DNA of 64,000 nt from the NCBI GenBank assembly GCA_964036295.1, contig OZ038469.1:10184067-10248066 (forward strand), given 5' to 3'. The position numbers were made by a program, and so were the translations under genes. This document shows, one piece after another, positions 10,213-52,915 of this stretch (position 1 is the stretch's first letter; every line of letters begins with the position of its first letter). The stretch is from Plumapathes pennacea. Its lineage: Eukaryota > Cnidaria > Anthozoa > Antipatharia > Myriopathidae. The notes beneath the pieces are model-generated. The model did no database searches. It saw nothing but the letters and a program-made list of their open reading frames with translations, and had not been told where the DNA came from.

Positions 10213-13200
10213 ATGGGACTCAGCACAGCCTTGCGGCTTAGCCGTTTCAATCATGACAGCTATAAATATACCTGCGATGACATCATATATTTATTTCTAA
10301 ATCACAATGGAAATGGGGCAGGTTTGCGGCTGACCAATGATAACCCGCCGGATTATTTCGTGGAACTGTTTGCGACGATTCTCAGAGCCAGGAAGATGGC
10401 CGTTCAGTTACTGCACAAAGTAGTAGAGGAACTAGTTTTGGATATCGTTTGCCAAAATGGATGGATCAAGCTGGGAACCTTAGGGCTAGAACTGAAAGGT
10501 ATGCTTGGTTATTCTCCTAAAACCTTCTTAAACTTTGAACTTCGTTTCAAAGGCGATGCCAGGCGGCCCAGGCATAATCTCCCAAGATCATTACTTTCCT
10601 TTGTAAGGAACCTCCCTTTCCTATCTGTATCCAAGGAAATTGTTAAACTCACGGCGAATTCCGACTTTTCGGCATGGCAAAGTATTGAGGATCTCGGCGT
10701 CGCGAAAATTCGGCGAGCTTTGCTGTTAAAGACATGCCACCGCCTCCTCGAATGGTCACCAGGCGTGATAGATCCGAATCAGAAAGGACCTCATGGAAAC
10801 ACTCTTCTACATCTGGTTGCTGCTCTGCCGAGTAACAGTACGTTTTACGACCTTTACAATGAACAATACTTGACGATGCTTTTGGAAAGTGGAGCAGATC
10901 CGAGAAAGAAAAACTTCGACAATTCAACACCACTTCACATCATTGCTGTGAGGCAAAATCTAATCAACCAAGAAGAAATAAGCCCGAAAGCATGGTCTAG
11001 TAATAGCCGTTACAAGCAGCTGAAAGCTATAACAAACGAAGAAAAGTACTCAAAGGCTGAGTTTGCCGACTGCAAAGACGAGCGTGGGTTTAACGGCAAT
11101 AACATCTTGCACGAATGGGTAATTGCTAGTCTATCGAATGACGCCATACACGACGAGTTTTGGCTTGGAGCATTTATCTTCTCTTTTGAAGGTTTGTCAG
11201 ATGGCATCAACGACATGGGTTGTACACCTCTTCATTACGCCTATGATGCTGAGCTGTTTAAGTTCTTCTCGCTTAACGGAGGGATCCACGAGAGCCGCAA
11301 CGACAACGGTGATACACCATTGCTATCAGTTGTCAAGAAAGGTATCATCCATGGCGAAAATAGAGAGAAACTCCTTCAAGGTTCGACCAGACCTCATGGT
11401 GATGGTAGAAGTATTAACATTGTAAAAATAATTTCTATGGTTGCTTCAAGAAATCATAACATTTTAGCCCGCGATCGCAACGGAAATCATGTGATTGATT
11501 TGCTGCTACAATCAGCTGCTCAAATTCGATACCGACCAAGCCAGTTTCTTTCTCTTTGCAAAGTTCTAAGAAGCCTTATTCAGTACTCCAGTTCAGAAGC
11601 CTTGAATGGGGAAAACAAGGCTCGTTCTACCCCACTGGAAGCTTTGTTCCGCTGCATCACGATCATGTGCAATTCTGATTTATACGAAGGGTATGAAAAT
11701 GCCTTGCCACTTCTGAACGTAATGAACATGCTGCTAGAGAAAGGAGCAGACCCCAACGTTATTCGAGGGCCAAACAGAGACACACTTCTGCACAAGTGCT
11801 GCTGCCTCACATCTCTACCACCAAGCATCACCAGGAAATTAATTGGCATTTTGCGCACCCATGGGGCCGATCGTCGTCTGCTGAACAACCAGGGAAAGAC
11901 ACCTCTCCATCTACTCTTACAATTGCCATCTGCTAGTTGGACCTTGGACCTAACGGAAACCTTGCTCAACACCCAGCCAAAAACAACAGTTAGAATTCAG
12001 ATGAAAACCACGGTCCACACGAAGGTTTTGCAAAAGCTGTGCATTTCAAGCCCAAGAAAGGTCGAGTCCTATCGCTATGACCCTGCTGTTTCCATCGGTG
12101 AAGGAGCTATGGGGATGGTGTTTCCCGCCATTGACGAGGAAGGAAAACGAGGGGTAGCACTAAAGAGAATACAGAAAGACCACAAAGAGAAAGGTGTTTC
12201 AAGAGAAATCGAAGCCCTCTGCAAACTAACTCAATACGAGCAAGTGGTTGATTATTACACCATCATTAATAGTGACCCAGACTTCCACTTCATTGTGCTA
12301 GAGCTCATGGAGGGGGACTTGGCTTATCTGATCCAACATAAGACCAAGGAATTGTCAGAAAACTCCCTCATGGCCAAACTGGTCGGTGATATGGTCAAGG
12401 GCTTAAAGTATCTTCATGAGCAACGTATCCTGCATCGCGACCTGAAACCAGGAAACGTATTGTACACAGATATCCCTCACCTCTGTCTGAAAATTGCAGA
12501 TTTTAATCTTGCAAAAGATCTGACAGGGTATTCCTCACGCAACTCAACAAGTGGACACTCGTTGTCTGGAACTCGCGGTTGGATGGCACCGGAGCTAGTC
12601 AGTCGAACACAGACTAAGCACACAATGGAGTCAGACGTCTTCTCTCTAGGACTGGTGTGCCACTTCCTGATGTCCAGAGGGAAGCACGCGTTTGATCCAA
12701 AACGTGCAGTGCTTACAAAAGAAGCAGCCAGTGCCCAGCGCGTGTTGCCCCACGAATTAGAACAGTCGATCATTAGCGGCACACATCACATGGACAAAAG
12801 TGAACTCAAACCAGCAGGGCATCACTTGTTGAAACAGCTCCTAAGCAAAGAAATCCAGGACAGGCCCAAACTCGACTTGATTGGTGAACACTGCTTTTTT
12901 TGGAGCATTCACAAGAAGATCCAATTCCTAATGGCTGTTGGAGATCAGGTAGAGTTTGCTAAACCGAGTGTACACGGATGGGATAGAGTTATCCTTCGTC
13001 TTGAAGCCACGCCACTTGGATGCAGACTACGAGACATTCCATGGGACACAGTAATCCCTGATTTGTACAACGAGATGATGTCTGCATGGGGACGCAGAAC
13101 GTACACCACAACTTCTGCGGCGGAACTTGTTCGTTTTTTTCGCAACGCCTATGCACACGAAGAGGAGCAGTCATCTGCAAGGAAGGCTGAACTGATGTCC

Positions 13201-13329
13201 AACATCTTCTTTCAGAAGTTCCCTGACCTCCTTCTGACCGTCTGGGGTACAGTGCTTCAAGCGGGGTGGGACAAGCCACAACCTAACAGAGAACGACAGC
13301 GTGTTCAACGAGCACTGTCAATGGAGTGA
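10213..13329 (+). CDS. RNase L-like protein: ankyrin repeats, protein kinase and KEN ribonuclease domain
   Basis: Single exon, 1,038 residues. The ATG at 10213 is the first in frame, and an in-frame TAA lies at 10204. Residues 1-190 are unrecognised. Ankyrin-type segments follow: GNTLLHLVAA (about 195), STPLHIIA (about 237), NNILHEWV (about 296), CTPLHYAYDA (about 336), DTLLHKCC (about 523) and KTPLHLLLQL (about 562). A kinase domain spans about 622-885 with glycine loop GEGAMGMVF, Lys651 (VALKRI), HRDLKPGN at 741-748, DFN at 763-765 in place of DFG, and MAPELV. From His893 (HCFFWS) comes a KEN domain with Arg977, Asn978 and His982 in RNAYAH, spaced like the IRE1 and RNase L catalytic residues, then FFQKFPDLL. 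Known for the family: RNase L is activated by 2-5A binding to its ankyrins, dimerises through the kinase-like region and cleaves RNA. Inference: a stress or antiviral ribonuclease. IRE1 is less likely because no luminal domain or membrane segment is seen. The ligand is unknown. Confidence 0.9.
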   Translation: MGLSTALRLSRFNHDSYKYTCDDIIYLFLNHNGNGAGLRLTNDNPPDYFVELFATILRARKMAVQLLHKVVEELVLDIVCQNGWIKLGTLGLELKGMLGYSPKTFLNFELRFKGDARRPRHNLPRSLLSFVRNLPFLSVSKEIVKLTANSDFSAWQSIEDLGVAKIRRALLLKTCHRLLEWSPGVIDPNQKGPHGNTLLHLVAALPSNSTFYDLYNEQYLTMLLESGADPRKKNFDNSTPLHIIAVRQNLINQEEISPKAWSSNSRYKQLKAITNEEKYSKAEFADCKDERGFNGNNILHEWVIASLSNDAIHDEFWLGAFIFSFEGLSDGINDMGCTPLHYAYDAELFKFFSLNGGIHESRNDNGDTPLLSVVKKGIIHGENREKLLQGSTRPHGDGRSINIVKIISMVASRNHNILARDRNGNHVIDLLLQSAAQIRYRPSQFLSLCKVLRSLIQYSSSEALNGENKARSTPLEALFRCITIMCNSDLYEGYENALPLLNVMNMLLEKGADPNVIRGPNRDTLLHKCCCLTSLPPSITRKLIGILRTHGADRRLLNNQGKTPLHLLLQLPSASWTLDLTETLLNTQPKTTVRIQMKTTVHTKVLQKLCISSPRKVESYRYDPAVSIGEGAMGMVFPAIDEEGKRGVALKRIQKDHKEKGVSREIEALCKLTQYEQVVDYYTIINSDPDFHFIVLELMEGDLAYLIQHKTKELSENSLMAKLVGDMVKGLKYLHEQRILHRDLKPGNVLYTDIPHLCLKIADFNLAKDLTGYSSRNSTSGHSLSGTRGWMAPELVSRTQTKHTMESDVFSLGLVCHFLMSRGKHAFDPKRAVLTKEAASAQRVLPHELEQSIISGTHHMDKSELKPAGHHLLKQLLSKEIQDRPKLDLIGEHCFFWSIHKKIQFLMAVGDQVEFAKPSVHGWDRVILRLEATPLGCRLRDIPWDTVIPDLYNEMMSAWGRRTYTTTSAAELVRFFRNAYAHEEEQSSARKAELMSNIFFQKFPDLLLTVWGTVLQAGWDKPQPNRERQRVQRALSME

Positions 13330-13484: not shown

Positions 13485-13490
13485 AATAAA
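13485..13490 (+). terminator. Polyadenylation signal AATAAA of the RNase L-like gene
   Basis: Canonical AATAAA 156 bases after the stop codon, in a short AT-rich 3' flank. Position and strand fit, but there is no transcript evidence. Confidence 0.55.
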
Positions 13491-17451: not shown

Positions 17452-18485
17452 CTAAGTATCAACATTTAACATTCTGTGTACCTGCTTAATTAACTCCTCT
17501 TGTTCTGTAGTCTCAATAGATCCTGGTCTCTTTTCTCTCACCATATCTATAGCATCTTGTGCACTACATCCTGTGGTCTTAACCAGGTAACAAGCCAGCA
17601 TGGTACCAGTTCGTCCCATGCCACGAGCACAATGCACAGCCACTGCCTAAAGAAAATAACCAAACTCCATATTAAAGAACTATCACCATCAAAACTTGTG
17701 TGTAAGTGCCAAATTAATACTCAAAATCACAACTCCAAAATATCTGGGGTTCAACTTATCTGGAAACAAGAAAAAAAAAAAGAAAAAAAAAAGCCTTAAA
17801 CGTGTCCTATAACTTTTCCCATACAAATCTTTGTAACTTTAAAGTGCTGCCAAATTTGAGATACAGTAGAACCTTGCTATCTCAAACTCGGCAATCTCGA
17901 ACTCCCCAAACTCCTCGAAAAGAATCCTATTTCCCTCGGAAATGAACTTGGTATAAATTTCCCTAAGTAGAACCCCAATATCTCGATCCCCCGCTATCTT
18001 GAACTATTTCTTGCTTCCCTTGAAAGCTTGAGATAGCAGGGTTCCACTGTATAAATATTATGCTGTGAACCTAAAATTTTGCATGTCTTCGTAGTTGTTC
18101 AACATGCTCTTTCTGTTTATGGCACTCAAAAAGCACATTAAGTTATGAATTATCAGTCATTAGGGTCATGTAACCAGGTCCTGTAAAGAATTAACCTATT
18201 GCATTTTAAACAATGCCACCTGTACAGTACCTCTCCGCGTCCGATTGCTTCTTGGGCGATTCTGAGGAATCCTTGCACTTGAAGGATAGAAGGAGGAGTT
18301 AAATCAATGATAGGAAAGTGATATAAGCGCATCTCCACTCCATGAAGAGATGGTGCCAGTTCTGTGAGACACACCAAATGGCGGACACCAGCATCAGCCA
18401 GAAATTCCATGTGTTCTTTACTCAATGGTCTCCCGAGGCCTGCCAACCTCTGATGGATCAGCCAAGAAAAGTTCAAAGGAATCAT
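17452..18485 (-). CDS. DUSP23: DUSP23-type dual-specificity protein phosphatase
   Basis: Two coding exons on the minus strand: 18485-18231 (ATG, 85 codons, donor GT at 18230) and 17646-17452 (acceptor AG at 17648-17647, stop TAG). Total 149 residues; human DUSP23 (VHZ) has 150. The N-terminus NFSWLIHQRLAGLGRP and the segment GVRHLVCLTE match the family. The active-site loop HCARGMGRTG holds the catalytic Cys and Arg in the CX5R arrangement, and RPGSIET near the C-terminus is a DUSP23 hallmark. Known role: small atypical phosphatase lacking a substrate-docking domain, acting on Ser/Thr/Tyr phosphate. The intron carries a 190-bp inverted-repeat element. The protein looks intact. Confidence 0.93.
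17862..18051. mobile_element. pogo/Tigger-like miniature element in DUSP23 intron
   Basis: Ends 'acagtagaaccttgctatct' and 'agatagcagggttccactgt' are inverted repeats of about 26 bp flanked by TA. The CAGTAGAACC-type terminus followed by AT-rich 'tctcgaac' words is typical of Tigger/pogo-derived non-autonomous elements. Non-coding, 190 bp. Confidence 0.72.
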
Positions 18486-30193: not shown

Positions 30194-33100
30194 GTTTATT
30201 TTGTTTTATTTTCTGTGCTATCAGACCAGTCGTCATGAAGCTAAATAATTCTAATGTTCTGTTCTTTCCTCTAAACAAATTGATGAAGCCGTCTGACAGA
30301 CATAACGAGCCAATGTAGTGTTAGTTTGTTTTATGTGCTAGATGAGACGTCTTCTATAAAGAATTGTGCGTTTTCTTCAAATTTCTGGATGGCTTTAAAA
30401 TGCTTTTGACTATAATAACTTGAGTACTATACTCTTCAAATAAATAGTTTTATCACATAATGATAGCGCGATTGTATCGCATGAATGAGCCAGGTTTTTT
30501 AGGAGTTTGACGTGACTATCACTGCCTAACAGATGTAGGCATGTAATGACCAAACCAGCTCCGAAACAACCGCATCACTTTCCAGGCATGTTCTTATTCT
30601 GCCCTAGACAATTTATAGGTATGACAGTTTGTTTTTGAGTGTACGTTTAAATATTTAGGATTTTAATAAAAGGTAATCCAATCAGCTTTCTTCTTTGATG
30701 TAAGCTAGCGTGGTTGTAAACAGTGATAACAAAAACAGTTAAGAGCTCGCTGTTACTTTTTCCCTCGCTTGAATGGAGCAAAAGTGAATTCTAATTCAGT
30801 GGTTTGGCTGAGAAAATGAAATGTCGCGTCCAGGTGGATACTATCGCCGAAAGAGTATGTAACTAACTGTTCTAGCGTAACAGGCCATTTGTACCAACAA
30901 ACTTAGGCGCATCATTTTCAATTACGGGCATTCTAAAGGACCAATAGCTATAGCGTAGTATAAATGTAATGTATGTATAATTGTATATGTTCAATCATGG
31001 TACGAAACCATTTGGTTTGTAAACTTAGGCTGAAGATTCTATGCTAACTATAGCTGCTGACAGTACCATGATATTTCACGAGACAGAAAAATGCAGATGA
31101 ATGCCACAGCACCGTTACGTTCTATTTCCTGCGGAATGTTTCTTTGAATGTCGTTTTCGCCTGACTGTTCCTAATGTCGAAAATACCACGACTAACGTAA
31201 TAAAAGAACAACTACAGAAACTGGTATATAGAATGGATGTCTGCAAATGCAAATTTTTGCCACCACCGGAAAGAACATAACAACCTGCTGCTTTGTTTTC
31301 TAGGGCAGTCTTACGGCCAGAGGAGACCAACCCTGACCGTTGTCCTCAAACGGATATTAGAAAGCTATCCAGATGGAGGCCAAATACTGAAGGTAACGAA
31401 TATGATATAAATAGCATACTAATATACCTTTGTCACAGTATAAAAAGCTTGATCAAACATAAACACAAGACACACGAAGCGCCGCTAGTTTCAAAACTGT
31501 AATGTTTTAAAGTTTTGTTAAGTGAACGGGCAAGGTTGCCCGTCAAGTCAGTTCTGCCATAAAAAAAAACCTTCTAAAATTGCAATTTTGAAAATAGCGG
31601 CGCTTCGCGACATTTTCGTTTATGAAAATTCGTGCATTGACTAATTTTGCTATGCTCTTTCCAGTGACGTATTATTTTTGTCTTTGGCCGAACTTTATAT
31701 TAGCTGGCATTACCGTGATACGCGTCTATTCACCTGAGTCAGATATCTTCGTAACTGCTTTTCACTGCCGCCTACCACAGGGATTTTATCCTGGCGCTTG
31801 CTAATAATGTTTTTTCCTTTAATGGTGTGGAAAAGTCTAGTAAAAAATAACAGGTAGTTAATTACTAGCATTAAAATCGGTGAGCCTTAAAGAAAGATGT
31901 TAGGCAGCAGCCATCACCTTAAATTGCTCCATAAGCCACGATTTCCATGTATCAATATTGGTTTACATTACCGAATGTCAGTTGATATTATATTTCATAC
32001 CATAAACCTGTTAACCTACACAAAAGTAAATGCGCCGGCAGAAAGAGTATAATCCATATACAAGAAGGTGGCACGAGCAGTATAGACTAGTTGACCAGGA
32101 ACCTACAAGAGACTACTGTTTTCAGTTCCTGAATAACAGTACAATCTTCTTTAGACACAGCGTAAAAAGAGCTCAGTGAAAGCGGCAACGGCAACATATA
32201 CTCCGCTTTATTTCGAAGGGTATTTCATCAATTGTTCTGATCTTTAGCCGTCACCATCTGATTCTGGTTCTCTCTAAATTTATAGGAACTGATTCAAAAT
32301 GCAGACGACGCTGGAGCAACAGAAGTTAAGTTCCTCTTTGACTCTCGTGACAATGCATTTGCGACCACCAGCCTTCTCAACCCTGACCTGGCCAAGTTTC
32401 AAGGCTCCGCCCTGTACGCCTACAACAACGCACGTTTCAAACAAGAAGACTGGTTGGGTATCGAAGGCATCATGCAGGGAAACAAGAAGAGGGACCCAAT
32501 CGCGGCTGGACGATTCGGCACCGGTTTTAACTCAGTGTACCATATCACAGGTGAGTGGAAACCTTTAGGCCTTTGGGTTCCTACCATTATACTTTAAAGT
32601 CGAGTTTATTGGTCCTTTCACTCCCAAGAGTGATCACCTTTCAAAAATTTCTTCTTTAGTTTCTAACCAGAGATACGTCGGCTTTTTGATAGCTTACTCC
32701 GACGAAAGTTGAGTTAAATATCAATGCTTACTACACCACTCGTTGTGAGTTAAATAGTTAATAGCAAGATGGAATTCTCTTTACCACAATACTTTGTTTT
32801 GTTTTATCTTGATTAAAGGTAGTTCCACCATACAAAGAAACCAATTAAAGCACATTAGTGTACACATGTGTCTTCATATTAGCTGTAGTAACTATTTGTC
32901 ATTTAATGCCTTTGGTACATAAATTGGCAGTAATCCTAATCTCTAATATAGTCTATATCTACTAAAGTTTTCCTCTCTTTTGTTCAAGATATGCCAAGTG
33001 TCGTCAGCGAACATCATGTAGCCTTCTTAGATCCTCAAGAAGCTTACTTTGGTCCCGGAGAGACTGGACGCAAATACGACCTTAGAGATCCACTTCTGGA

Positions 33101-36100
33101 TCAATACAGGGATCAGTTCTGCCCCTTCGAAGGCGTCCTGGACTGTCATGTTTCTTCCGGGTTCCATGATGGCACTCTGTTCCGTCTTCCTCTACGAAAG
33201 TGGCCTTCACGTATATCAGTGAAGTCATACACGGCCAGCAAAGTTAAAGCTTTGTTTGAATCATTCATCGAAGAAGCCCCGACAATTCTCCTCTTCCTCA
33301 AGCACGTGGAGTCGATCAGTTTGTATGAAACAAATTGGAATGAGAGCCAAAGGCATATCTTCACCGTGCGCGTCAAAGAAGCTCAAAAAGCAGAAATCAG
33401 GGAAAAGAAACGAGATTTCTTACACGTTGCTACCAAGAAAGGTAGTATACCCTATGAGATGACTTACGAAGTGGCCATAGAGGAAATCATGGAGGACAAG
33501 TACACGAAAGAACACTCGTTTGTAGTACTAAACCGAGTAGGAAGCGAGAATCACAAACTCATTGAACTCTCGTCGCTCCTACATCAGATCCCATGGGCTG
33601 GAGTGGCGTATCCCCTGAATTGCGATACCAGAAAGGTGAACAGTCCGGGCAAAGTTTTCTGCTTCCTGCCTCTTCCCGACGAGTCTGACTGCAGAACTGG
33701 TCTGAAAGCCCACATCCACGGGACATTTGGCTTGACAGACAATAGACGCAGTTTACGGTGGCCTGGACCAGACTGCCAGAGCGATGACGCAGCTGAATGG
33801 AACGTTCTTCTCCTGAAAGACGTTGTTAGCAAGGCGTACGCCAGTCTTTTGGTTACCCTTGCGCAATCAGAGCGTAATGGATTGGAACATCTCGTTGACG
33901 CCCTTTGGCCTGACCTGGACCATATGGAGCGGCACTGGAAAGACATATTGAAACCCTTCATTAAGTCACTGACAAGCAAGCCTGTGTTTTGGACAGCCTC
34001 CCAAGGTGGAAAGTGGGTTAGGTTGCACGAAGCAGTTTTTGATGCTCCCGAGAAGTACTCGAACCGAATCAAGCAAGAGGTCAAAGATGTCGTGTTCAAA
34101 ACGCTTTTAAATGCCGGGGAGCCAGTTGTCAGACTACCGGAACACGCGTTCAAAATGCTAAAAGCCAATCTCGATAACCTACAGTCTCGAATGCAAGAAA
34201 TCACGCCTTCCTATGTTCACAAGGTCCTTTCTAAAGAAACCAAGAGAAAGGTGTGTGTACACTATCTAAAAGGTTCTGACCACAAAAAGCTGGACATTTA
34301 CAACATTGGAAAACCAACCATTCAGTTAGGTAGCCCTTATGGAAGTGCCCCAAATTTCCGGTCAATTGAGCACCCAGTCTGGTCAAGTGTGGGGAGAAAG
34401 GAGAGACTGTGTTTGCTGGAATTCATGTTGAAATGTGGAAAGATGGAAGACCTTGAGGGACTTCCGCTTCTTCCACTCGCCAATAAGTCCTTCACAATGT
34501 TCAAGTGGAATACGTTTCACACAAGTCCTGATGAAGCGGTGTTTGTGGCTTCTCGTCATCACCAAAGAAACATCCTGCCAGGTTCTGCGCATAGATTTTT
34601 GGACGAGGACCTCCCAGAAAGCCTGCTCCAAACGTTACGTGCATTGGCGGTTGACTTGGAGAAGGAGCAAGATACGAGTTCTGTAACACAGCTTGCCAAG
34701 CTAACGCGAAGTTTAGTCCCTCAACTTATACGAGAAAGCTTACCAGATGAATGGAAGACTGGAGATGCAGTTGTGGTGTGGAACATTCAAGAACAGAGCC
34801 ACTTCAATGAAATATGGTTGAGAAATCTTTGGTCCTGGCTGAGAGTAGAGTTTCCCGAAGACCTGAGCCAGTTCAAGGGCATACCCATGATTCCTCACAC
34901 CGAAGTAAGCCCTGAAAGAAGGTACCTGATCAAACTAGGAGAGACGCCGAATCTGATCCAGATTACTTCCCATTTCGCTACATTGCCTGTGCACGTGACA
35001 AGTGCACTTCAAAAGGTTGGATCTATGACCCTGTCCAAATTGCCTTCTTTTTGTGACCATCACGCTCTGAAACGCTTCGTAGAACCTCCAACGCCCTCCG
35101 GAGTCCTCAAAGTTCTGGCATTTGTTACAGAACAAAAGGGCACGAATGCACTAACCGATTGCAGCCCGGAGGAAAAGATTGCAGTCAGAGCATTCCTTTC
35201 GAGTATGAGAAACCCATCTGATGATGAAGTGGTAACCCTGATGGCCTTGCCCATATTCACTGCTTTGGATGGGGAGACTTTTACATCAGTGAGGCTAGGT
35301 GGTCCCATGACTGGGAAGAAGCTAGAAGTGGCACCTCCAAGGTTAGGTCTGCCGTCTAATATGAAGATCGCTGACTCAGATCGTATGATCTCTGCTGCTG
35401 ATGATGACTCGTTTCAGCTCCTACGACGCCTTCCAGTGCGCATTTACGGCACGGCCGACTTTTTGATAGAGAAGGTGTTTCCCTATGTGAGGCAAGAAGG
35501 CTTCTACACAGCAGAGCAGATTGTGCACTTGATGACTTCAGTTCTTCAAAGACTTCCTATCCTTTCCAGTGACAAGAAAGATTTTCCAGAACATCTGCAG
35601 ATCCTCAAGTTTATACCAGTGTCTGGTGGAAGCTTCATGGCACCTTGTGAGTTGTATGATCCAGAAGACGACACATTGAATAAGCTGTTCGAAGGGCAGC
35701 ACAACGCATTTCCCACTCAAGAATTCGCAAAACCTCACGCACTAAGCCTCCTCCGTGTGTTCCTTGGCCTCCGTAGAAGTCGTTCTTTAACAGCAAAAGA
35801 TATCATCCTTATTGCCCGGCAGATTGATGGCAGATCAGATGAAATATCCCAAAGAAGAGCTGAAGCACTCCTTCGTTTTCTGAATGAAAATGCTTTTCTT
35901 CTAGAGAAAGAAGTTACCGTTGGAAGTATTGGCCATGCCTCAAACCAGACGCTTGCCAAAGCTCTGATGACGTTGCGTTGGATTCCAGCATCAAAGACGC
36001 CAACGAACAGATATCCAACAACAATGCCCTGGTTTCAGTCGACATGTTCCCTCTATTCTCCTCAAGAAATTAGAGACGCCGAGGTCGCTGATTTGGTTGG

Positions 36101-39100
36101 ATCGGTCATGCCATTAAGAATGGAGACAACGGAAGAGAGGATTCGGAATGCCTTTGGCTGGACATTACCACCGCCACCTTCCCTTGTCCTTGATCAACTC
36201 AGAGTAGCTGCTATGACATGGCAAAACAATGGCAAAGAATCATCGCCTATGGAACTATTCAAGTTCCAGACGGTATTGAGAAACATATACGACTTTCTTT
36301 CGAGGGACAGCGTTTTGCCTGAGGTTTCCCAATTGCTCAAGGATACCACATTTCCGCCATGGATATGGAATGGTACAGGTTTCTCTAAACCATCGTGCGT
36401 GGCCTTTAGTAGTACGTGTCCTCTTGACATGAAGCCACATGCGTATGTGATATCCCAAGACTTCGCCAAGTACGCTAAGCTCTTCAAACAATGTGGTGTA
36501 GAAGACAACTTTGACGACAGCAGTCTGGTAGATATCCTGCACGTCATTCATGACAGTCATGTAAGACAGAAGCCGAACAGTGAGGTGGTACAACGTGATC
36601 TCCGTATTTCTAATGACATCTTGAAATTTTTGACTAGAGATGGAAGATCGTTGTCGACTGAAAAACGTGATCAGGTTCTGGTACCTACCCAATCAACAGA
36701 TGGGACATTGCGACTCGCACCACTCGACAAAGTGAGTTTCTGTGATGCAAAGTGGCTTCGGAAAAGCCATAATGACCTGGACTTACGCTTCACCACTCCC
36801 CTAGTACATGAGAGTGTCTCAACACAGACAGCGCAGTTACTGGGAACCGAAGCTCTAAGTACCAGGCTTGCTGTTGTCGAAACACTAGGCTTTGAGCAGA
36901 CTGGACCTCATGAACCAGTAACAACAAGACTAAACAATATCATCAAAGACCAAAAAGATGACCTTGTGGTGTTTAAAGAGTTGCTACAGAACGCAGATGA
37001 TTCTGGGGCAACGGAAGTCAAGTTTATGGTCGACTGGCGAAACCAACAGGGAGAAAGGTTACTTTCACCTGAAATGGGGAACGCACAGGGACCGGCCTTG
37101 TGGGCATACAATAACGCAGTCTTCACAGACAAGGACTTTGAAAACATCACCAAGCTAGCCGGTGCCACAAAGGTTGGAACAGAAGGCAAGATTGGTCGCT
37201 TTGGCGTTGGGTTCTGCTCAGTCTACAATGTCACTGATGTACCAAGTTTCATCAGTCGAGAATACATTGCATTCTTCGATCCTCAGATGAAGTATCTCAG
37301 AAACCTGATCAAGGACAGTTCAAGACCTGGAATTCGTTTAAATCTAAAAACCAACCCACAAGTTGTAGACGCCTTCACTGATCAGTTTGTTCCCTACGAA
37401 GGAGTGTTTGGCTGCTGTTTCACAGGCAATTTAGACGACTTCCACTATGACGGGACTCTCTTCCGTTTTCCCTTGCGAACACTCAAACAAGCGGGAACAA
37501 GCGAGATATGTAACAAACATTATGACGAAGAGGGATTCAGCAAACTCACAAAGGCCTTTCACGAAAAAGCTAATCAGCTACTTCTGTTTCTTAACAACGT
37601 GGAAAAAGTCAGTTTCCATGAAATAGAAGCATGTACCGGTGGATCAAACAAACCAAGGATGCTTTTTGAAATTAGAAGGGCAACCATTGAACCCGTTCCA
37701 CGGAGGCCAAATCTCCACATGAGTGACTCTTTCCTTCAACTTCGCTCTCCAAAAGGCGATATGAGAGGACCGTGCTCACGAATATCAGAGAGAGACGATA
37801 CACCATCTTCTGTAGTCGTTTCACTGCAGTCAAGAACCCTCCCTTCCAAATGGTTCCCCACGGACACTCACCAATGTAATGAAATCTGGATGATCACCAC
37901 CACGGCTGGCCAGGCATGCTCCGTCGATCTGGTCAGTAATCAAGAACGACGGTTGGAAGGACTTGTTCCTGATGCAGGCGTGGCAGCTTTGCTCTCTTCA
38001 AGTGCTAGTCCAGCGGACCCGTGGATCCCACAACCAGTAACAGGGGAGGTTTTCAATGCTCTTCCGCTGTCGATGGCAACCGGGCTTCCAGTGCATGTAA
38101 ATGGGTGTTTTTCTGTCCCCACAAATCGGCGTGGTATCTGGGAAAACACAAGTACAACTGAGAAATGCCAACCTCTAGAGGTACACTGGAATCAGAATCT
38201 ACTCAGAGATGCCGCTGCATCCGCTTATGTCCAGCTTCTTGAAGACATAATATATCTTCACAAGAACGGGAAAGTTGCTTTCTTTCCATATGAGTTGCTG
38301 TGGCCAAATGTGGAACAATTGACGTCCAAGACCTGGAAGATGTTTGCTTCCCATGTTTATCTAGGTATAAGCATGAATGCTGCAACCTTGCTACACAGCA
38401 GGTCTCGATGGGTCTCGTTTGGAGACAGTTCGTTCTTGGATGAAAAGGTTGCAAACCTTTCGGAATGTCGGATGATCATGGAGAAATGTGGTTACCAGGT
38501 GGTCAACTTACCCAAGTCTGTTTTAAAAGGATTCTACAAGGCAGGAATAACTGAATCTATTCTCGAAAAAACAATGACGTACGACAGATTCCTTCGTCAC
38601 GTGTTCTTTCCAAATATCGACTGCACCTCACCAGAACTGCGAGATTCAATCACCTGCCACGTCATTGACGATTGTCTGCAAGGAGCTTTCCAATTCGAAG
38701 ATCTCCTTCGAAATTCCCACTGCGTACCAACATCTCCAGATGGAAATACTCTCGCACGCCCACGAGATTTAGTTGACCCTGGCAGCCCATTGTCAAGACT
38801 GTTCTGTCCAGATGAGCACCGCTTCCCGTTTGGTCAATGCTTTTTAAAGCCAGAGAGATTGGTTGTCCTCCGTAAAATTGGAATGATGGGAAACATAATT
38901 TCGTGGGAAGAAATTTGTGAACGGGCCGCCTCACTGAGTGCTCTCATGGTTGGAGACTACTGCATGGGTGTGAAAGGCTTACAGAGCCTGTTCAAGTATC
39001 TTGATGACCACTTGGATCGGATTGGTGAACCGACAGCTGCACAGATTTCCAGATTCAGATCAATTCCGTTTCTCCCATTTCTTCCCAAGCCAAAGGAGTA

Positions 39101-42100
39101 CTGCCTGCCCTGGAAGTCGACAGGCTTATCTGCAGGTGCTTTATTGTCGGCGAATGAGCTGTACCATGACCGATACACACTCCTCGTTGCCAGAACTCAA
39201 TCGATACTAGATGAATCTCCGGACTCGGGGTGTGGACATCTTAGCAAGGAAATGTTAACTTTGCTTGGCTTGAAAGATAAAGAGCCGAAGACAGAAGATG
39301 CTCTTATGCAACTCGCTGCTGCTGTGGAGAGTCTGGGACATGCACCTTCAAGTAAGGAATGCATTCGTAAAGTGTGCTATGAGGTTTACGAGTACCTGCA
39401 GAATAGGCTTCAAACACCGGAAGAGGCACAGATTCAAGCCATGCTGAGAGACAATCCGTGGATTCTAGTGGGAAACAAGTTTGTAGCAACTAACCAGGTA
39501 GCTTTCAACTGGATTGGATATGGAGAACCATTCTTGTATTGTCTGCCACAGGAATATGTAGAGAGATTTGGAAATCTCTTCAGAGCACTTGGTGTAAACG
39601 AATCTTTCACTTCAGACGACATCATCGAAGCCCTGTTTGTGCTACATGATAGAAAAGATGGGTCTCCTCTATCTCCAACAGAGTTTAGGACAGCAAAGTC
39701 ATTCCTGGATGAAATTGCCGGCATTGAAGATGAAAGCTTAAGTTCGTACTATGGTTTATTCCCTGTACCAGACTCCAACTTTGTGTTGCAACCAATTGGA
39801 GAACTTGCTTTCAATGATGCACCGTGGCTACTTAACAGTGATCAAACAAGCTACGTTCACCCTGATATACCTTGGCGTCTTGCAGATAAGCTCGGAGCAC
39901 AAGGGTTACGCGAAATAAAGCTGGACCGATATTCCCAACCTATCGGCAAGGAATTTGGTCAGAATGAAAACCTCACGACCCGCCTGAAAAACATTCTGCA
40001 GTCCTATCCCTGTGACACAGGAATTCTGAAGGAGATCGTTCAAAATGCAGACGACGCCAATGCAACAGAGGTTCATTTCATTTACGACCCACGTAATCAC
40101 GGAACAACCCGAGTGCTAAGTAGCCAATGGAAAGAACTCCAGGGGCCTGCTTTGTGTATCTACAACGATCGTCCTTTCTCGAGGAGAGACATCGATGGTA
40201 TTCAGAAAGTTGGTATCGGAAGCAAGAAGAACAACCCAGAATTGACGGGTAAATCTGGTATTGGATTCAATGCTGTGTACCACATCACCGATTGCCCAAG
40301 CTTTGTTACAGACAGCGAAACATTGTGCATTCTGGATCCCCATGCGCAATATGCCCCAGGAGCGACGCGGGACTGCCCAGGCCGTCTTCTGGATAGCCTA
40401 GACGAGGAATTTTGGTACGACTTTGCAGACGTACGTTCAGGATACCTTGGCGAGTTCTTGAAACTGAAAGGTTCAACCATATTTCGTCTTCCTCTCAGAA
40501 CGGAAAGTATAGCTAAACAGTCGGAAATATCTTCAACTCACTTTACAGACAAAGATATCGACGACTTGTTGACTCTTTTCGAGAGTGAAGCTCGAGATAT
40601 GCTTATCTTTCTGAAAAGTGTAAGAAAGATAAGCATTTCCACAATTGAAAACAACAAATTAACAACAAAATACGAAGTCGTTGCAAAGCTCACAGATAAT
40701 GGCTGCACCAAACTGAGAGCTCTACAAATGCAGACAAACAAATGCAAGGACCTCCTAACGCGACAGATCCCCTGGTTTGGCATAACGTATGGCTTAACCC
40801 TTAACGACACACTGGGAAATGTGGAAGAATGGTTGGTACACCAAAGCCTCGGATCGCAACAGTACGACGGCGAGTACCATATCCCAGACGGCGGCATGCT
40901 GCCTCGGGCTGGTGTTGCAGCTTGTGTACACATGCAGGCTCCAGGAACTCATTCGGTTGCCCGAGAGTATGGAGCACTCCCCGAAAAATGTCATCGGGCA
41001 TTTTCCCTTCTTCCTTTACCTGTCAATACGGGGTTACCTGTCCACGTGAATGGAAACTTTGCCTTAGATGACTCACGCCGTGGGCTTTGGGCTGATGAAG
41101 ATGACAAGGGAGTAAGGACACAATGGAATGACTTCATGAAGACCCAAGCCTTGGTTCCAGCATACGCCAATCTCATAGTGAATGCCAGAAAGTATATCAC
41201 TGGAATCCAAGAGGGGACACCCTGGCTTTTGAGTGATACGAATGAAGCAGCCAGTGGATTGCAGTGGTACTACCGCTTATTTCCCAGATTAGAAAGAGTC
41301 AGCACTGACTGGGAAGACCTTGCTGCATCGCTATACCGATACATGGCTATGACAAGCCAACCAGTGCTTCCTGTGTTCCACGAGGAAAGCATAGACGTAA
41401 TGAAACAAAGCAAGCGTCGCTCTTTTACCAGCCAGCCAAAAGCTACAATCTGCTTTTGGATGCCCCCAGCTGATGAAGAGGAAGAGCGTTATGTTTTCTT
41501 CAGTGACCTTGATGACCCAGGCTTGGAGAGCACTCTCTTGAACATCGGTTTTCCACTGCTGAACTCACCAGTGGAGTTGTGTCAAGATTTCAAAGCTGCA
41601 GGAGTTCCTGTAAAGGAAGTAACACCAGAAGTAGTTGTAAGCTTCTTATCTTCCCCTTGTTGCGACATTGGAGTACTACCCCACCAAATCGAGGGCACGA
41701 ATTTTGGCAGCCCTGACAAGCTAGCCGACTTGGTCAGGTTTTGCATGAAGAGTGACTTCTTCCTTGAACGACTTGATGGCCTTCCAATTTTATTAACGGA
41801 AGATGGTGTCCTTGACTACTACGACAGTAGCTGTCCGATTTTCCTCACACCTTATTCTGAGCTCGTTCCTCACCAGAAAGCAGCTTTTCTCCATCGTCAT
41901 TTTGTAGATGCATTCACAATGTCCTACAATAACGCCCTTTGGAAGACTGGTTTGTTTAAGAGATTCGACACAGAAAGCTTGGAGGCATTTCTCATTCACA
42001 TATTGCCTCCTCGGTGGTTCGCTTGTGATACACACGTTGAGTGGGATCCAGCTACTGCAACGATGCCTTCCCGTGAATGGTTGGTTCTTCTGTGGAAACT

Positions 42101-45100
42101 AATCCATTCCACTTATCTGGAACGTCAATCAAGCTTTGACCTAAATGAAAATGGCACTGAAACCCTCTTACCGCTAGAAGCCTGGCCTATCATACCAACC
42201 ACTACAGGAACTCTTTTTTCTCCCTCCTTGGGTAAGACCGTCTTGGACGTGAGCCACACTGGGCACGGTGACGAAGGGCTGGTGATAGTTTTACGCAAGC
42301 TTGGATGTATGGAACTTGACTTCACAGCCCTGCCAGGGATTGACACAGCCGACATCTCCCAAATTCTAAGTCCGTACATGTCACGACCGCACTCTCGCCA
42401 GGACATCGCCTTTGTTCTTCATCACTTAAGCCAGGAGAATGACTTATCAAACAAGCTAACCAGCGAAGAGGTTATTATCTTCCTGAGACACATGCAAGAC
42501 GACGTGACCACAGTGTATAGTCATAAAAGTCTTCTGCGAAGTCTGCCTTTCTACAAAACACTCGCTGGCAACTACGTAAGTCTTGCTTCCTTTGCTTTTG
42601 TCTACGTCACTGACCTTCCGGAGTGGATCCAAATGGAAACAATCTATCCACGTATTGCGGAAGAAGGATGTGTGCTGCTGCAATCTGTCCAAGAAATCCA
42701 TCCCCTCTATAAGGCTCTGGACATAAGCGTTATCACTCAGGTTGAGGTCCTCGGAAGGTACGTCCTTCCCAACTTCGATGCCATGGCTTATTCGGAACGA
42801 CTAGCCATCCTTGAGTATATCAAAGACACGCTCCTCGTTACACTGACAAATTCGAATGAAAGAAGCACTCTCATCAATGCGCTAAAGCAATCTGCCATTT
42901 TCCCGGACGAATCTGGTAAGCTTCATCCTGTGAGCAGATATTATGATCCAGAGAACGTAGTGTTCAAAGCAATGCTTTTCTCACTCAACTTCCCACCGCC
43001 GGAATTCAGTAATCCACAATGGCTTCCCTTTCTACGAGACATTGGCCTAAGGTACATAATCTCACAGCAGCAATTCATTGAGTTTGCCGAGGCTCTCGCT
43101 CAAGAGGCAGAACTAGACGACAAAGATCCCAATCTGACTGAGAAATCTAAAGCCCTGGTAGGCTATCTACTGCAACAGACTGAACTCCACGATGCTTGCT
43201 TTTTGCACATAGTCTCACGTATTAAGTTTGTGGCCAGTGAAAGAGCAAGCCAACAATTGAGAAAACTGCATTTTCAGTTTGAGTGTAACAAGGAAGGCGA
43301 TACACCCCCATTTACGGAGTTTCACGGTTCTGTCTCGTGCGAACAGCAGAAGCTTGTATGGACAAGTACCCCTCTGCTTCCAGCCTGGGCTATTCCATCC
43401 AACGGTGGACCCACTATGGAAAATCTGGGTATAGAGCCACTTCCTGCATTGGAACAAGTCATTAAACACTTGGAAAATTTGTGTTCCACTCATTCAGGGA
43501 ATGTAAACAAGGAAACCCCTAAAGATCAACGGGAACTCCTTCACGATGTTATGTGCGAAGTCTTTAGCTTCTTCAAGGGTGAATGCACATGCCCTACGAC
43601 TGGTCTCTCTGACAGATGCACAAGGTCATGTCTCGCAATTGGAAACATTTTACGAAAGACTCCTTGCATACCGGTTGAAGAAGGCCGAGTACTCGTCGAA
43701 GGGAGCCAACTTGCGTTTGAAAAGGCTATTGACTTGCCACCATTCTTCTACAAGGTTCCTCGCGAGTACGGTCACTTGGAACACCTTTTCAAGAGACTTG
43801 GTGCCGAAGAAAAGCCAACACCACTGCAATTTGCAAAGGTTCTTGAGCGGCTCAAAGAGGTATGTGAGGACAAGCACATGGAGCCAAACGAGAAGAGGGT
43901 TGCACGAATAGCAACACAAGGATTCTTTACCACCCTCTCACTGATGGTTAAAGAAAAGAGCAAAGCATCGACATCCACATATCTCGCTTCACTCAATGAA
44001 CTGTTCTTGCCAAGTAAGGAGGGATTTTTGAAACCATCTCACGAACTCATCTTTCATGACTGCCCGACGTTTGAGCGCCGTGCAAGAGACTTTGCAGGTG
44101 ATTTTGTGGACATTAGTCGTGAGGGTGAACTCACTGCAGACAGATTGTCCTACCTACTCAGTTTGCTGCCCACTCGTCAAAGAGCAAAGACAATACAAAG
44201 TCTTTTACGCGAAGAGATGCATCCAAGCTGCGAAGAAAAGCATTGCATCGCAGATTCCGAAGGTGAACCGTGTCCGTACATTAGCCACTACCGTAGCATT
44301 CTGCTTTCTCCCAAATTTGTAAACGGGATCATTCGTGTCATTCGTCACCAAAGACAGACACCTAACCTTCCTCAGGATGTCAAGGACCAAGTGCAAGTTC
44401 TTACAACAAATCTTCAAATCAAGTGTATGGCTTGCCTTGAGACACACCTTCTGCATCTGGAGACTGGTAAAGCGATCAACAACAGCAAAGAAGCACAAGA
44501 TTGTTTTCTGGAAGAGCGCAACGGGAATTGGGATCTCTTCATTCGACATGGATCTGATGATAACCCACTCCTGATCCAGTTATGTTTCCTGATAAATCGC
44601 CTTATCGGAAACCAGATAGAGAAAGAAATCTACCTCCAAGCCATGCTTGCCAGTAGAAAACCGGATGACATCCTGCCTTCCCTGGACAGATGCGGGGTGG
44701 CACAAGACCTCATTGGAAGTAAAGAAAGTACGAAAGAGCCGGTCCTGGGGTCCGAAATTCCTGTGATGTACCACTACCTCTTGAAACAAGACATCACGTA
44801 TTTCTTTCGTCAAGGTGAGATAGTGGGCTACGAGAAAGAAAGAGGACTTCCAGATGACCAAGTTGACGACAGCGATCCTCTGTACGTCTATGCCAAAGTG
44901 GTGAGAAAAGTAACGAACCGTACCAGCCCAAGTGAAAACACTAAATACGACTTTCAAGCAAAGTACAGGATCGACATTGGAAAGCCACGTCTCGTGGAAG
45001 TGAGTGTACTGGATCTCTACAAGTTTGACCGCTCTGGGGGAGACCAACTACCAGTGAGAGTGTTCTCTGATTCGAAAGAAATAACCCTATTCACTGGTGA

Positions 45101-45941
45101 TCCTCAAGCAGACGATTGCAAAGTTGCCACGAGGAACCAACGTTTGGAAAACGCCAGGAAAGAAATTGGAGAGGCACTATGGGAGGCGTGGAAGTTACCG
45201 GAAAAAGAACGGCGTAAAGTCATCAAGAGGTTGTTCCTGCGATGGCACCCAGACAAGAACGCAGAGTGTGATATAGCCCATGATGTCATGCAGTTTCTTC
45301 TGAATGAGATCGACAGGCTAGAGAGGTTGTTTCCGACGGGCTGGAGGGATCAGTACAACGACGCCAAGTCAGAAAATTCAAGTGGCTCCAGCACCTTCCA
45401 GGAGTTCTTCAACCAGTGGGACCAGCGTGCAAGACAAGAGCGAAGGACGTACAACACCTTCAAGCGACAGAACAGCCAGAAAACAGGCTACGCGAAGAGT
45501 TCGTCCAACCCGCAGAGAAATGAAGCAAAGCGTTGGATTAAGCAAGCTCGGGAGGATCTGAAGGCTGCCAAGCAACTCAACACGCAAGACTCTCAATTCC
45601 ATGCTCTGGTCTGCTTCCTATGTCACGATGTCGCTGAAAAGGCCTTCAAGAGCGCCCTTTATGCAGCATGTGGTATTGCCGAAAACCAACTCGAGACTCA
45701 CGATGTCCTCAACCTTGCTTACGAAATAACCGAACTGGATCGTTCCCCCGAGGATATTCCTGTTTTGGCAGCTAAACTTAAAGATTACTACGAGAAGACA
45801 CGCTATCCTCACTTCCACCGTGGAGATGCGGTACCATTTGAGGTGTTTACGAGTGAGCATGCATCTGAGGCGCTTCAAGTCGCCGAATCCATCGTGGACA
45901 AAATCGGCACGTTCCTCGACGACAATTTTGCTAAAGTGTAA
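29990..45941 (+). CDS. SACS: Sacsin-like giant chaperone (HSP90-like repeats, DnaJ, HEPN)
   Basis: Coding exons 29990-30014, 31304-31392, 32286-32550 and 32989-45941 join in phase to 4,443 residues (human sacsin about 4,580). Three sacsin repeats each open with an HSP90-type ATPase segment: [13 protein letters not shown] and [14 protein letters not shown] (from about residue 39), [13 protein letters not shown] and [12 protein letters not shown] (from about 1435), and [13 protein letters not shown] and [14 protein letters not shown] (from about 2453). A J-domain-like segment has HPD at 4213-4215 (RWHPDKN), and a HEPN domain runs from about 4304 to the end. The order matches sacsin. The N-terminal ubiquitin-like domain of vertebrate sacsin is absent: the predicted protein starts only 38 residues before the first ATPase block. 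Known role: sacsin works with HSP70 in organelle and cytoskeletal quality control. It could be an ortholog or one of several cnidarian paralogs. The last exon alone is 12,953 bp. Confidence 0.9.
30165..30193. repeat. Poly-T tract of 29 bases
   Basis: Uninterrupted T run in sacsin intron 1. Confidence 0.95.
31477..31607. mobile_element. 131-bp inverted-repeat element in sacsin intron 2
   Basis: Ends 'cgaagcgccgcta' and 'tagcggcgcttcg' with arms of about 27 bp (two or three mismatches; 'tttcaaaactg' against 'caattttgaaaa'). There is a small inner palindrome 'cgggcaaggttgcccg'. Non-coding. Confidence 0.72.
32609..32765 (-). repeat. Interspersed repeat, reverse copy in sacsin intron 3
   Basis: Shares 'cctttcactcccaagagtgatcacc' words in reverse complement with the copy at 864-1052. 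Confidence 0.55.
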
Positions 45942-51276: not shown

Positions 51277-51624
51277 ATGGAACTGTTTAGTATGAAGGTG
51301 AACTTAAAGGTACTTTGTATTCTTTTACTTTGTATTATTCTTGCTGATACAAGTAAAGCGTCAGAAAATCTGACTTTTCTTTGGAATCAACGTTTCACTC
51401 TGTTGTGCATTTGTGTTGTTGTTGCGACATTTTGGCTCAGTGCCATGAAGATCAAACAGGCAGCAGATAACGTGGCGTTATTATTTGAAAATTGGAACAT
51501 GATTGAAGAAGAAGTGGTCGTTGGTAGATCTCGCTTTGAGCAGTTCTATTGTATTCCCAGTAATGTTTATGTGAAAGAAAATCGAACTCGTCCAAGACGA
51601 AGTCGTGAGCCAACGTGCGCGTAA
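51277..51624 (+). CDS. Membrane-segment ORF preceding the 2A/protease ORF
   Basis: Frame of about 115 codons from the ATG at 51277 to TAA at 51622. It has a signal-like hydrophobic N-terminus (LKVLCILLLCIILADT), a second membrane segment (FTLLCICVVVATFWLSAM) and a basic tail. It overlaps the next frame (51605-52915) by 20 bases in a different phase, and that frame has no ATG of its own near its start. The two were probably one reading frame now broken by an indel, or joined by splicing or frameshifting. No domain family is recognised. Confidence 0.5.
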   Translation: MELFSMKVNLKVLCILLLCIILADTSKASENLTFLWNQRFTLLCICVVVATFWLSAMKIKQAADNVALLFENWNMIEEEVVVGRSRFEQFYCIPSNVYVKENRTRPRRSREPTCA

Positions 51625-52915
51625 ACAACATGGAAACAATAGAAAGCCACAGAAATGCAAAGAGAAAATTAGGATCAATAAACCATCGCTGCGAGAAAGC
51701 TATAAGTTCAAAAAGAAGTTTGTCAAAAGTAAACGAGGTGCTAAGGTACGTTTGTATTTTAGAATAACTTCAAGGACAAGCATTTCGAGACCAGCTGTGT
51801 TCAGAGATAGAAATCACAAAATCAATTACTACGCGTTTTCTCTGTCAAGGGATATAGAAAAAAATCCCGGTCCTTCAGTAGTCGATCCAAACAAAACGAT
51901 CATTGCACCGTACAGTCAAGGTAATGCTGCAATATTTGGAGATAATGCTGGACGACAATGTGTAGCTATGTCTCTAGCAGCTGTCATATTTAACCACACG
52001 AATTTTATTTCTTTATCAGAGGATTTGAGCGAAATTATGAATGCTGGGAACAATCTGTATTCCACTCTTTCGCAATTATCTAAGGACTATTTTTTGCTGT
52101 TGACAGATCTACCTGGAATGGTCACAATATATGAAACTCAGTATGAGCTGCAATACAGTGAAAGTTACGTGGGTAATTTGTTTGGAACTTGCTTTCCCAT
52201 CGAAGGCTTTGCTTACTGTACAACACTGACTGGGGCTTTTGACTTATTGCTCAGACAGGATTTCAGCTGCTTTATTCTGACAATAGGCTGTAGTACTGTA
52301 GCTGTATTTTGTTTGTCAGGTGGCAGGTTCAAAGTATTTGATTCTCATAGTAGAGATAGTTTTGGCATGGAACATCCTGAAGGAAAATGTGTATTAATTG
52401 AACTTCGTTCAGTTGGCAATTTATTGGAATATTTCCAGACTTTATATGTACACTTGCCTGCCATTACATTTGAAATTAAAGGAGTAAACATTTGTCTAAC
52501 AGAAGACAGACACAACAGGCACAGATGTGAAGAACCTACAACTGTTCAGCAAAGAAGTAAAGCAATTATTTGCAAATGTAAGCAGTGCTGTGCAATTTCT
52601 TTCTATAGCATTTGTTTCTCTGTAATTAAATCTTGCAGCTATTGGAATTCTGATACATTAAGTGCTGTAATTGAAAAAGGTAACACATTTTACAGGAAAA
52701 TGAATGTTGACAAACACCTTGTGATAAGTGATTTACCAAATAAACTAGAGATATGTGCAGGCACTGATGTTAATGTTGTCTTTACTGCTAAAAGACAAGG
52801 AGTTCTGTCTAAGGACAAAAGTTTAAGCAAGCAGAATCTTCATGAACTTATTACACAAAACAATAGGAATAATACTGGATTTCTGTTGCCAGCTGACAAA
52901 ATAACATGTGTATAA
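51605..52915 (+). CDS. Mobile-element-like ORF: 2A skipping motif and C76-like cysteine protease domain
   Basis: Open for 436 codons. No ATG is present until well inside the protease region, so the start is uncertain. The first about 80 codons are strongly basic. DIEKNPGP at 51851-51874 fits the 2A consensus D(V/I)ExNPGP, at which ribosomes skip the Gly-Pro bond. Downstream is a papain-like domain: GRQC (Cys at 51959-51961) with a Gln about 14 residues earlier, LLTDLP, and DSH (52340-52348), an Asp-x-His pair as in the herpesvirus tegument deubiquitinase family (peptidase C76). A second, degenerate copy of the domain's first half seems to follow (QCCAISFYS, VISDLPNKL), with no visible Asp-x-His. 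The frame ends at 52915 with AATAAA at 52945. Inference: part of a transposon or transposon-derived gene encoding a ubiquitin-directed protease, probably a decayed copy. A domesticated gene is possible. Confidence 0.65.
   Translation: MSQRARKQHGNNRKPQKCKEKIRINKPSLRESYKFKKKFVKSKRGAKVRLYFRITSRTSISRPAVFRDRNHKINYYAFSLSRDIEKNPGPSVVDPNKTIIAPYSQGNAAIFGDNAGRQCVAMSLAAVIFNHTNFISLSEDLSEIMNAGNNLYSTLSQLSKDYFLLLTDLPGMVTIYETQYELQYSESYVGNLFGTCFPIEGFAYCTTLTGAFDLLLRQDFSCFILTIGCSTVAVFCLSGGRFKVFDSHSRDSFGMEHPEGKCVLIELRSVGNLLEYFQTLYVHLPAITFEIKGVNICLTEDRHNRHRCEEPTTVQQRSKAIICKCKQCCAISFYSICFSVIKSCSYWNSDTLSAVIEKGNTFYRKMNVDKHLVISDLPNKLEICAGTDVNVVFTAKRQGVLSKDKSLSKQNLHELITQNNRNNTGFLLPADKITCV

Follow-up and report, generated by a model that had tools for sequence, protein, structure and literature searches.

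Gene and Domain Architecture

The window analyzed here is a 64,000-nucleotide stretch of the Plumapathes pennacea genome (C8:10184067-10248066 of a 290-Mb assembly in 24 contigs). Positions 10213..13329 of the forward strand hold one uninterrupted open reading frame of 1038 codons, which runs from an ATG at 10213 to the stop codon at 13327-13329. An AATAAA polyadenylation-type hexamer (13485..13490, +) begins at the 156th base past the stop. The original prediction described the product as a protein with ankyrin repeats, a kinase domain, and a KEN ribonuclease domain in that order. The protein is real, with Pfam scores far above chance, and the domain order was borne out by Pfam and by structure comparison.

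The ankyrin-repeat region covers residues 190-590 (10780..11982, +) according to Pfam, the AF2 model, and hhalign, with the outer limits set by eye; ankyrin Pfam models match between residues 194 and 568. The protein kinase domain spans residues 626-896 (12088..12900, +; Pfam Pkinase, E 2.3e-45). The KEN domain was located at residues 903-1017 (12919..13263, +) by Pfam together with profile and structure comparison, and the Ribonuc_2-5A/KEN model (PF06479) was matched with 38.0 bits (E 2.1e-9) against a curated cut-off of 23.3. The expected structural resemblance was also found. The predicted structure matches RNase L and IRE1, and the top eight Foldseek matches are RNase L. The likeness of the ankyrin region to that of RNase L was supported by a collinear hhalign profile match to shark RNase L (E 2.9e-37, 702 columns).

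The first ATG is probably not the start of translation. Of the 47 other rows in the A4 alignment, 15 start at the first column and 32 only where residues 60-63 lie, and residues 1-52 of the predicted structure have a pLDDT below 50. Met62 (10396..10398, +) is therefore the likelier start codon. It follows that the N-terminal part preceding the ankyrins would be about 130 residues long and not the 190 originally proposed.

An Anthozoan Family

The family set used below contains 143 proteins: the window protein, P0002-P0039 (among 120 listed), and P0122-P0225 (104 new proteins among another 120 listed). The remaining 82 proteins of the first listing are without a listed KEN domain, except for shark RNase L (P0111), which was kept for comparison. 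P0039 carries the KEN motif with no KEN domain listed. Family candidates scored numbered 7991 and 7997, and 143 is a lower bound that is biased toward intact copies. The family is large, and the members with names come from corals, sea anemones, and related animals; among those listed are Montipora, Stylophora, Acropora, Desmophyllum, Actinia, and Exaiptasia and the octocorals Paramuricea, Xenia, and Dendronephthya. Several long scleractinian-type relatives of 1250-1350 residues (P0010, P0016, P0028, P0219, and similar) have a similarly patterned N-terminal segment and a leucine-rich-repeat-like stretch (LDLSRRCF...LKRLILRD...CPALEEVDITGC) ahead of the ankyrins.

A PF06479 profile search of the same genome gave 23 matches. 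The 14 control genomes gave none, a control that is uninformative either way. The 23 matches were assigned to two IRE1 exons (C4), one gene for a protein with leucine-rich repeats (LRRs), kinase, and KEN (C3), the window gene, one short fragment (C7), and 18 more open frames, 482-2259 residues long, that contain the KEN motif. Pfam identified ankyrins, kinase, and KEN in 17 of these frames and only kinase and KEN in L025 (482 residues; no ankyrins at E<=1e-5), which brings the genome to 18 assigned ankyrin-kinase-KEN genes, the window gene included. Six of the KEN matches lie within 1.43-1.49 Mb of C7 and represent five ankyrin-kinase-KEN frames and the fragment. In the kinase-KEN tree the branches of two pairs from this cluster, L018/L020 and L021/L022, are very short. 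All 18 other frames fall in a class with the named hexacorals (98/96) in that tree. The window gene is the only one of its genome in a class that also holds octocorals (90/84).

The window protein is thus a real and well conserved protein of an unexpectedly abundant kind. Its plan is RNase L-like, and the variant is new. The ankyrin-kinase-KEN plan itself was already known, because the accessible part of PMC3710099 records the fusion of KEN to kinase and ankyrins in eukaryotes. We found no prior description of the anthozoan family, its numbers, or its winged-helix cap in a literature search with subscription papers and bioRxiv mostly outside its coverage.

KEN Catalytic Site and Kinase Motifs

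The proposed catalytic residues R977-N978-x3-H982 (13141..13158, +) were retained. This motif is present in 143/143 family members, and R977, N978, and H982 are invariant columns in a 40-row alignment. Tyr964 and Trp944 are each kept in 142 of the 143. For a KEN profile built on 13 family sequences, the matches include yeast IRE1 at E 9e-18 and human IRE1 at 6e-13, along with RNase L of pig (7e-14) and human (1.4e-12). IRE1 and RNase L account for all 18 PDB sequences matched at E<=0.1.

The VALK lysine, HRD, and DFN that had been read in the kinase domain were found at K651 (the end of VALK), 741-743, and 763-765 (12499..12507, +), respectively. Lys651, Glu665, HRD, Asn748, and DFG occur all together in 137/143 members; the exceptions are HCD in four, a gap in one row, and DFN in the window protein alone. 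The original prediction had left undecided whether the domain is an active kinase or a nucleotide-sensing pseudokinase. For the family, the motifs predict a kinase of the catalytic type. In the window copy, the sole member with DFN, the metal-binding Asp is kept and the Gly is replaced by Asn, and its kinase activity is uncertain.

Predicted N-Terminal Winged Helix

The part that precedes the ankyrins had been described as distinct and as a possible separate sensor. Its distinctness is supported by the AF2 model, which has the topology helix-strand-helix-helix-helix-strand-strand, and by a second look with VIA, in which winged helices were matched, the LOTUS domains of TDRD5, Tejas, and Oskar among them. 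The putative domain, a LOTUS/OST-HTH-like winged helix with its following helices, covers residues 62-180 (10396..10752, +), and residues 62-190 are aligned in all 47 other rows of the A4 alignment. Other winged helices fit the domain in VIA as well as the LOTUS domains do. In comparison with the LOTUS/OST-HTH proteins TDRD5, Oskar, Tejas, and MARF1, the sequence match is below threshold: PF12872 (OST-HTH) is not matched in the window protein and reaches a sub-threshold E of 0.033 in one of 19 members tested. OST-HTH is likewise absent among the 25 families listed, of 41, when the 48 members of the window protein's class were searched whole at E<=1. Foldseek with this domain returned nothing at E<=0.001; its 50 best matches are mostly MarR/OhrR-type winged helices, with no LOTUS domain among them. 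Seven sequences, none of them LOTUS, came up at E<=10 in a PDB profile search, the best at E 0.62. The predicted LOTUS-like cap may provide a second, direct trigger route for the RNase. The accessible text of a LOTUS paper (PMC2848206) mentions ankyrin and RNase fusions; the word kinase is absent from that text, which accordingly describes no kinase fusion.

Relationship to RNase L and IRE1

The window protein shares with RNase L the ankyrin-kinase-KEN order, the KEN Arg-Asn-x3-His, and the collinear profile match to the shark protein. It differs in the additional, predicted N-terminal winged helix and in having Asn at the positions of W60 and K89 (see below), and the family kinase has canonical HRD and DFG, for which the alignment shows HQD and DFD in human RNase L. 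With IRE1 (ERN1/2, Ire1p) it shares the kinase-KEN cassette, for which sequence and structure similarity are highest, and the positions of Tyr964 and Trp944. When the kinase-KEN part was compared with the PDB, the 16 best sequences were IRE1 (best E 2.5e-29), and RNase L was absent among the best 60; aligned identity is 25-28% with IRE1 versus 18-20% with RNase L. Unlike IRE1, the window protein has ankyrins and belongs to a separate clade. A luminal PQQ-type family, which several of the listed IRE1s have, was not found in it by Pfam.

Three kinase-KEN trees were calculated with 32, 42, and 22 family rows, a sample of the 143 proteins and of the 18 genes of this genome. The family forms one group in each (89/86, 89/77, and 99/97), and so does RNase L. 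In the tree sampled most densely for IRE1, animal IRE1 (100/99), fungal IRE1 (95/96), and the window family (99/97) are separate groups, and the LRR-KEN proteins also form one. In each best tree a branch (98/92, 98/92, and 97/88) separates the family and the outgroup kinases from RNase L, which stands on the other side together with IRE1. Constraining the family and RNase L together gave p-AU values of 0.047 and 0.023 in two samplings, which reject this grouping at the 5% level, and 0.147 in the third, which does not; for IRE1 and the family constrained together, p-AU was 0.113 (first sampling), again without rejection. These values are to be read with the long branches of RNase L and the outgroup kinases, an outgroup without KEN, partial rows for human IRE1 and the genome's own IRE1, and a strongly diverged Fasciola IRE row in the first two trees. 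The phylogeny of KEN proteins supports a single family, and in the three best trees that family shares no branch with vertebrate RNase L. The trees lean toward a placement of RNase L beside IRE1, with the family assembled separately. We claim neither common origin nor convergence; given the long branches and the outgroup without KEN, a common origin with RNase L may also apply. Membership in RNase L proper is unsupported, in view of these trees and the Asn residues at W60/K89. The linker between kinase and ankyrins was considered as a shared derived mark with RNase L and set aside; it is in register but yields only 2.5 bits for shark.

Proteins with LRRs, kinase, and KEN resemble the family in having a kinase-KEN effector behind another sensor part. 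They differ in having leucine-rich repeats and in forming their own clade on the IRE1 side. The C3 gene (L009:5010-7319, +) is a frame of 770 residues with LRRs, a hydrophobic stretch that looks by eye like a membrane span, a kinase (HRD, DFD), and KEN (RNKIVH). Among its best 33 matches (P0226-P0258), LRR, kinase, and KEN are all listed for 29, and one of the other four, from Paramuricea, has LRR and kinase only. As judged from these features, the product is a receptor-like relative of IRE1.

2-5A Ligand Positions and the OAS-Like Gene

W60 and K89 belong to the residues of human RNase L at which mutation inhibits 2-5A binding, according to the accessible part of PMC5927464. In the hhalign alignment with shark RNase L these positions correspond to Asn196 and Asn234 (human numbering was counted from W60 in the RNase L alignment). 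Asn196 is Asn in 47/48 members of the window protein's class and Asn234 in 48/48, and both columns reach 90% conservation or more in the 40-row alignment across classes, the hexacoral class included. The repeat correspondence of the other 2-5A contacts, F126, E131, R155, R309, and H311, is ambiguous because of ankyrin insertions. With Asn at both positions, the vertebrate mode of 2-5A binding therefore appears not to be conserved; 2-5A may still bind in some other way. A Trp occurs at the W60-type hairpin position in 30/143 members, mostly of the long scleractinian class. It was dropped as a sign of 2-5A binding, since the K89 position that follows does not match by eye.

The genome was also searched for an OAS-type synthetase, and an OAS-like gene was found on C6 (L030, C6:911500-921000, at least three exons). 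At E<=0.001 the OAS1_C profile gave no match in the genome, and the control was silent too; at E<=10 it matches one C6 exon with 24 bits against a cut-off of 19.9 (E 0.004). When three joined exons were compared with the PDB, all five sequences at E<=1 were OAS, collinear, with pig OAS1 the best (E 1.4e-5). Where pig OAS1 has the first Asp of its catalytic pair, the C6 gene encodes Glu, and the activity of the encoded enzyme is therefore uncertain.

Proposed Function

We consider it probable that the gene encodes a cytosolic, sensor-gated ribonuclease, likely antiviral, that works in the manner of RNase L; membership in RNase L is not implied. The domain order, the catalytic residues and their conservation, the predicted folds, the family size, and the clustered copies are what the analysis shows; the mechanism below is inferred. 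The LOTUS-like winged helix and the ankyrins would keep the protein inactive and bind the trigger, which may be RNA or a nucleotide other than 2-5A bound in the vertebrate mode. ATP would occupy the kinase domain, two protomers would pair in the way known from IRE1 and RNase L, and the paired KEN domains would then cut RNA via the Arg/Asn/His site.

The protein could alternatively be an anthozoan 2-5A receptor, a functional RNase L counterpart that is switched on by OAS products and completes an OAS-RNase L pathway. The OAS-like gene in the same genome fits such a role, and the accessible text of PMC6307210 reports OAS genes from eight lower metazoans, including Acropora, Nematostella, and Orbicella, and from four sponges, with no accompanying RNase L. 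In that of PMC8476169, homologs of both RNase L and OAS1 are named in the response of Nematostella to poly(I:C)/dsRNA, with the architecture not given. However, the Asn residues at the W60 and K89 positions, the Glu in the C6 gene, and ankyrin arrays that differ in length and insertions make a 2-5A receptor unlikely. The closer similarity of the kinase-KEN part to IRE1 and the canonical kinase motifs of the family would instead suit an RNA-quality-control or stress RNase of the IRE1 kind, without the ER part and with the ankyrins as a scaffold. This is rather improbable, as C4 of the same genome carries a multi-exon IRE1 of its own that groups with animal IRE1, apart from the family, and clustered multiplication is unusual for a housekeeping RNase. 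It is very improbable that the window gene is a decaying or inactive paralog. It does have DFN in place of DFG and the lowest KEN score among the full-length frames of its genome, but its 1038 codons are without a stop, its catalytic residues are intact, and it sits on a short end branch (0.12-0.14) beside P0006, with which it is 52% identical.

A broader extension of the sensor-gated ribonuclease is offered tentatively. Anthozoans may possess an arsenal of trigger-gated suicide RNases in which the kinase-KEN effector is joined to varied sensors (LOTUS-like winged helix with ankyrins, long ankyrin arrays, or LRRs), multiplied in clusters as NLR genes are and answering RNA directly or the products of orphan OAS/cGAS-like enzymes. 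If so, the RNase L plan would be far older than the vertebrates or would have been invented twice. A single genome with 18 ankyrin-kinase-KEN genes and an OAS-like gene makes the role of OAS outside the vertebrates, and likewise the age of RNA-destroying immunity in animals, testable in a tractable anemone.

Other Open Reading Frames in the Window

A frame of 436 residues at 51605-52915 (+) has a DIEKNPGP stretch that resembles a 2A peptide, followed by a domain that matches Herpes_teg_N (E 8e-8); the frame is perhaps from a mobile element. On the reverse strand, the frame at 18153-18485 (-) matches a dual-specificity-type phosphatase domain (PTP-SAK, E 5.4e-10). One frame of 4316 residues at 32991-45941 (+), 20 kb from the KEN gene, contains sacsin-domain sequence in three stretches and a HEPN domain at its C-terminus; HEPN and KEN are grouped in one RNase superfamily in the accessible text of PMC3710099.
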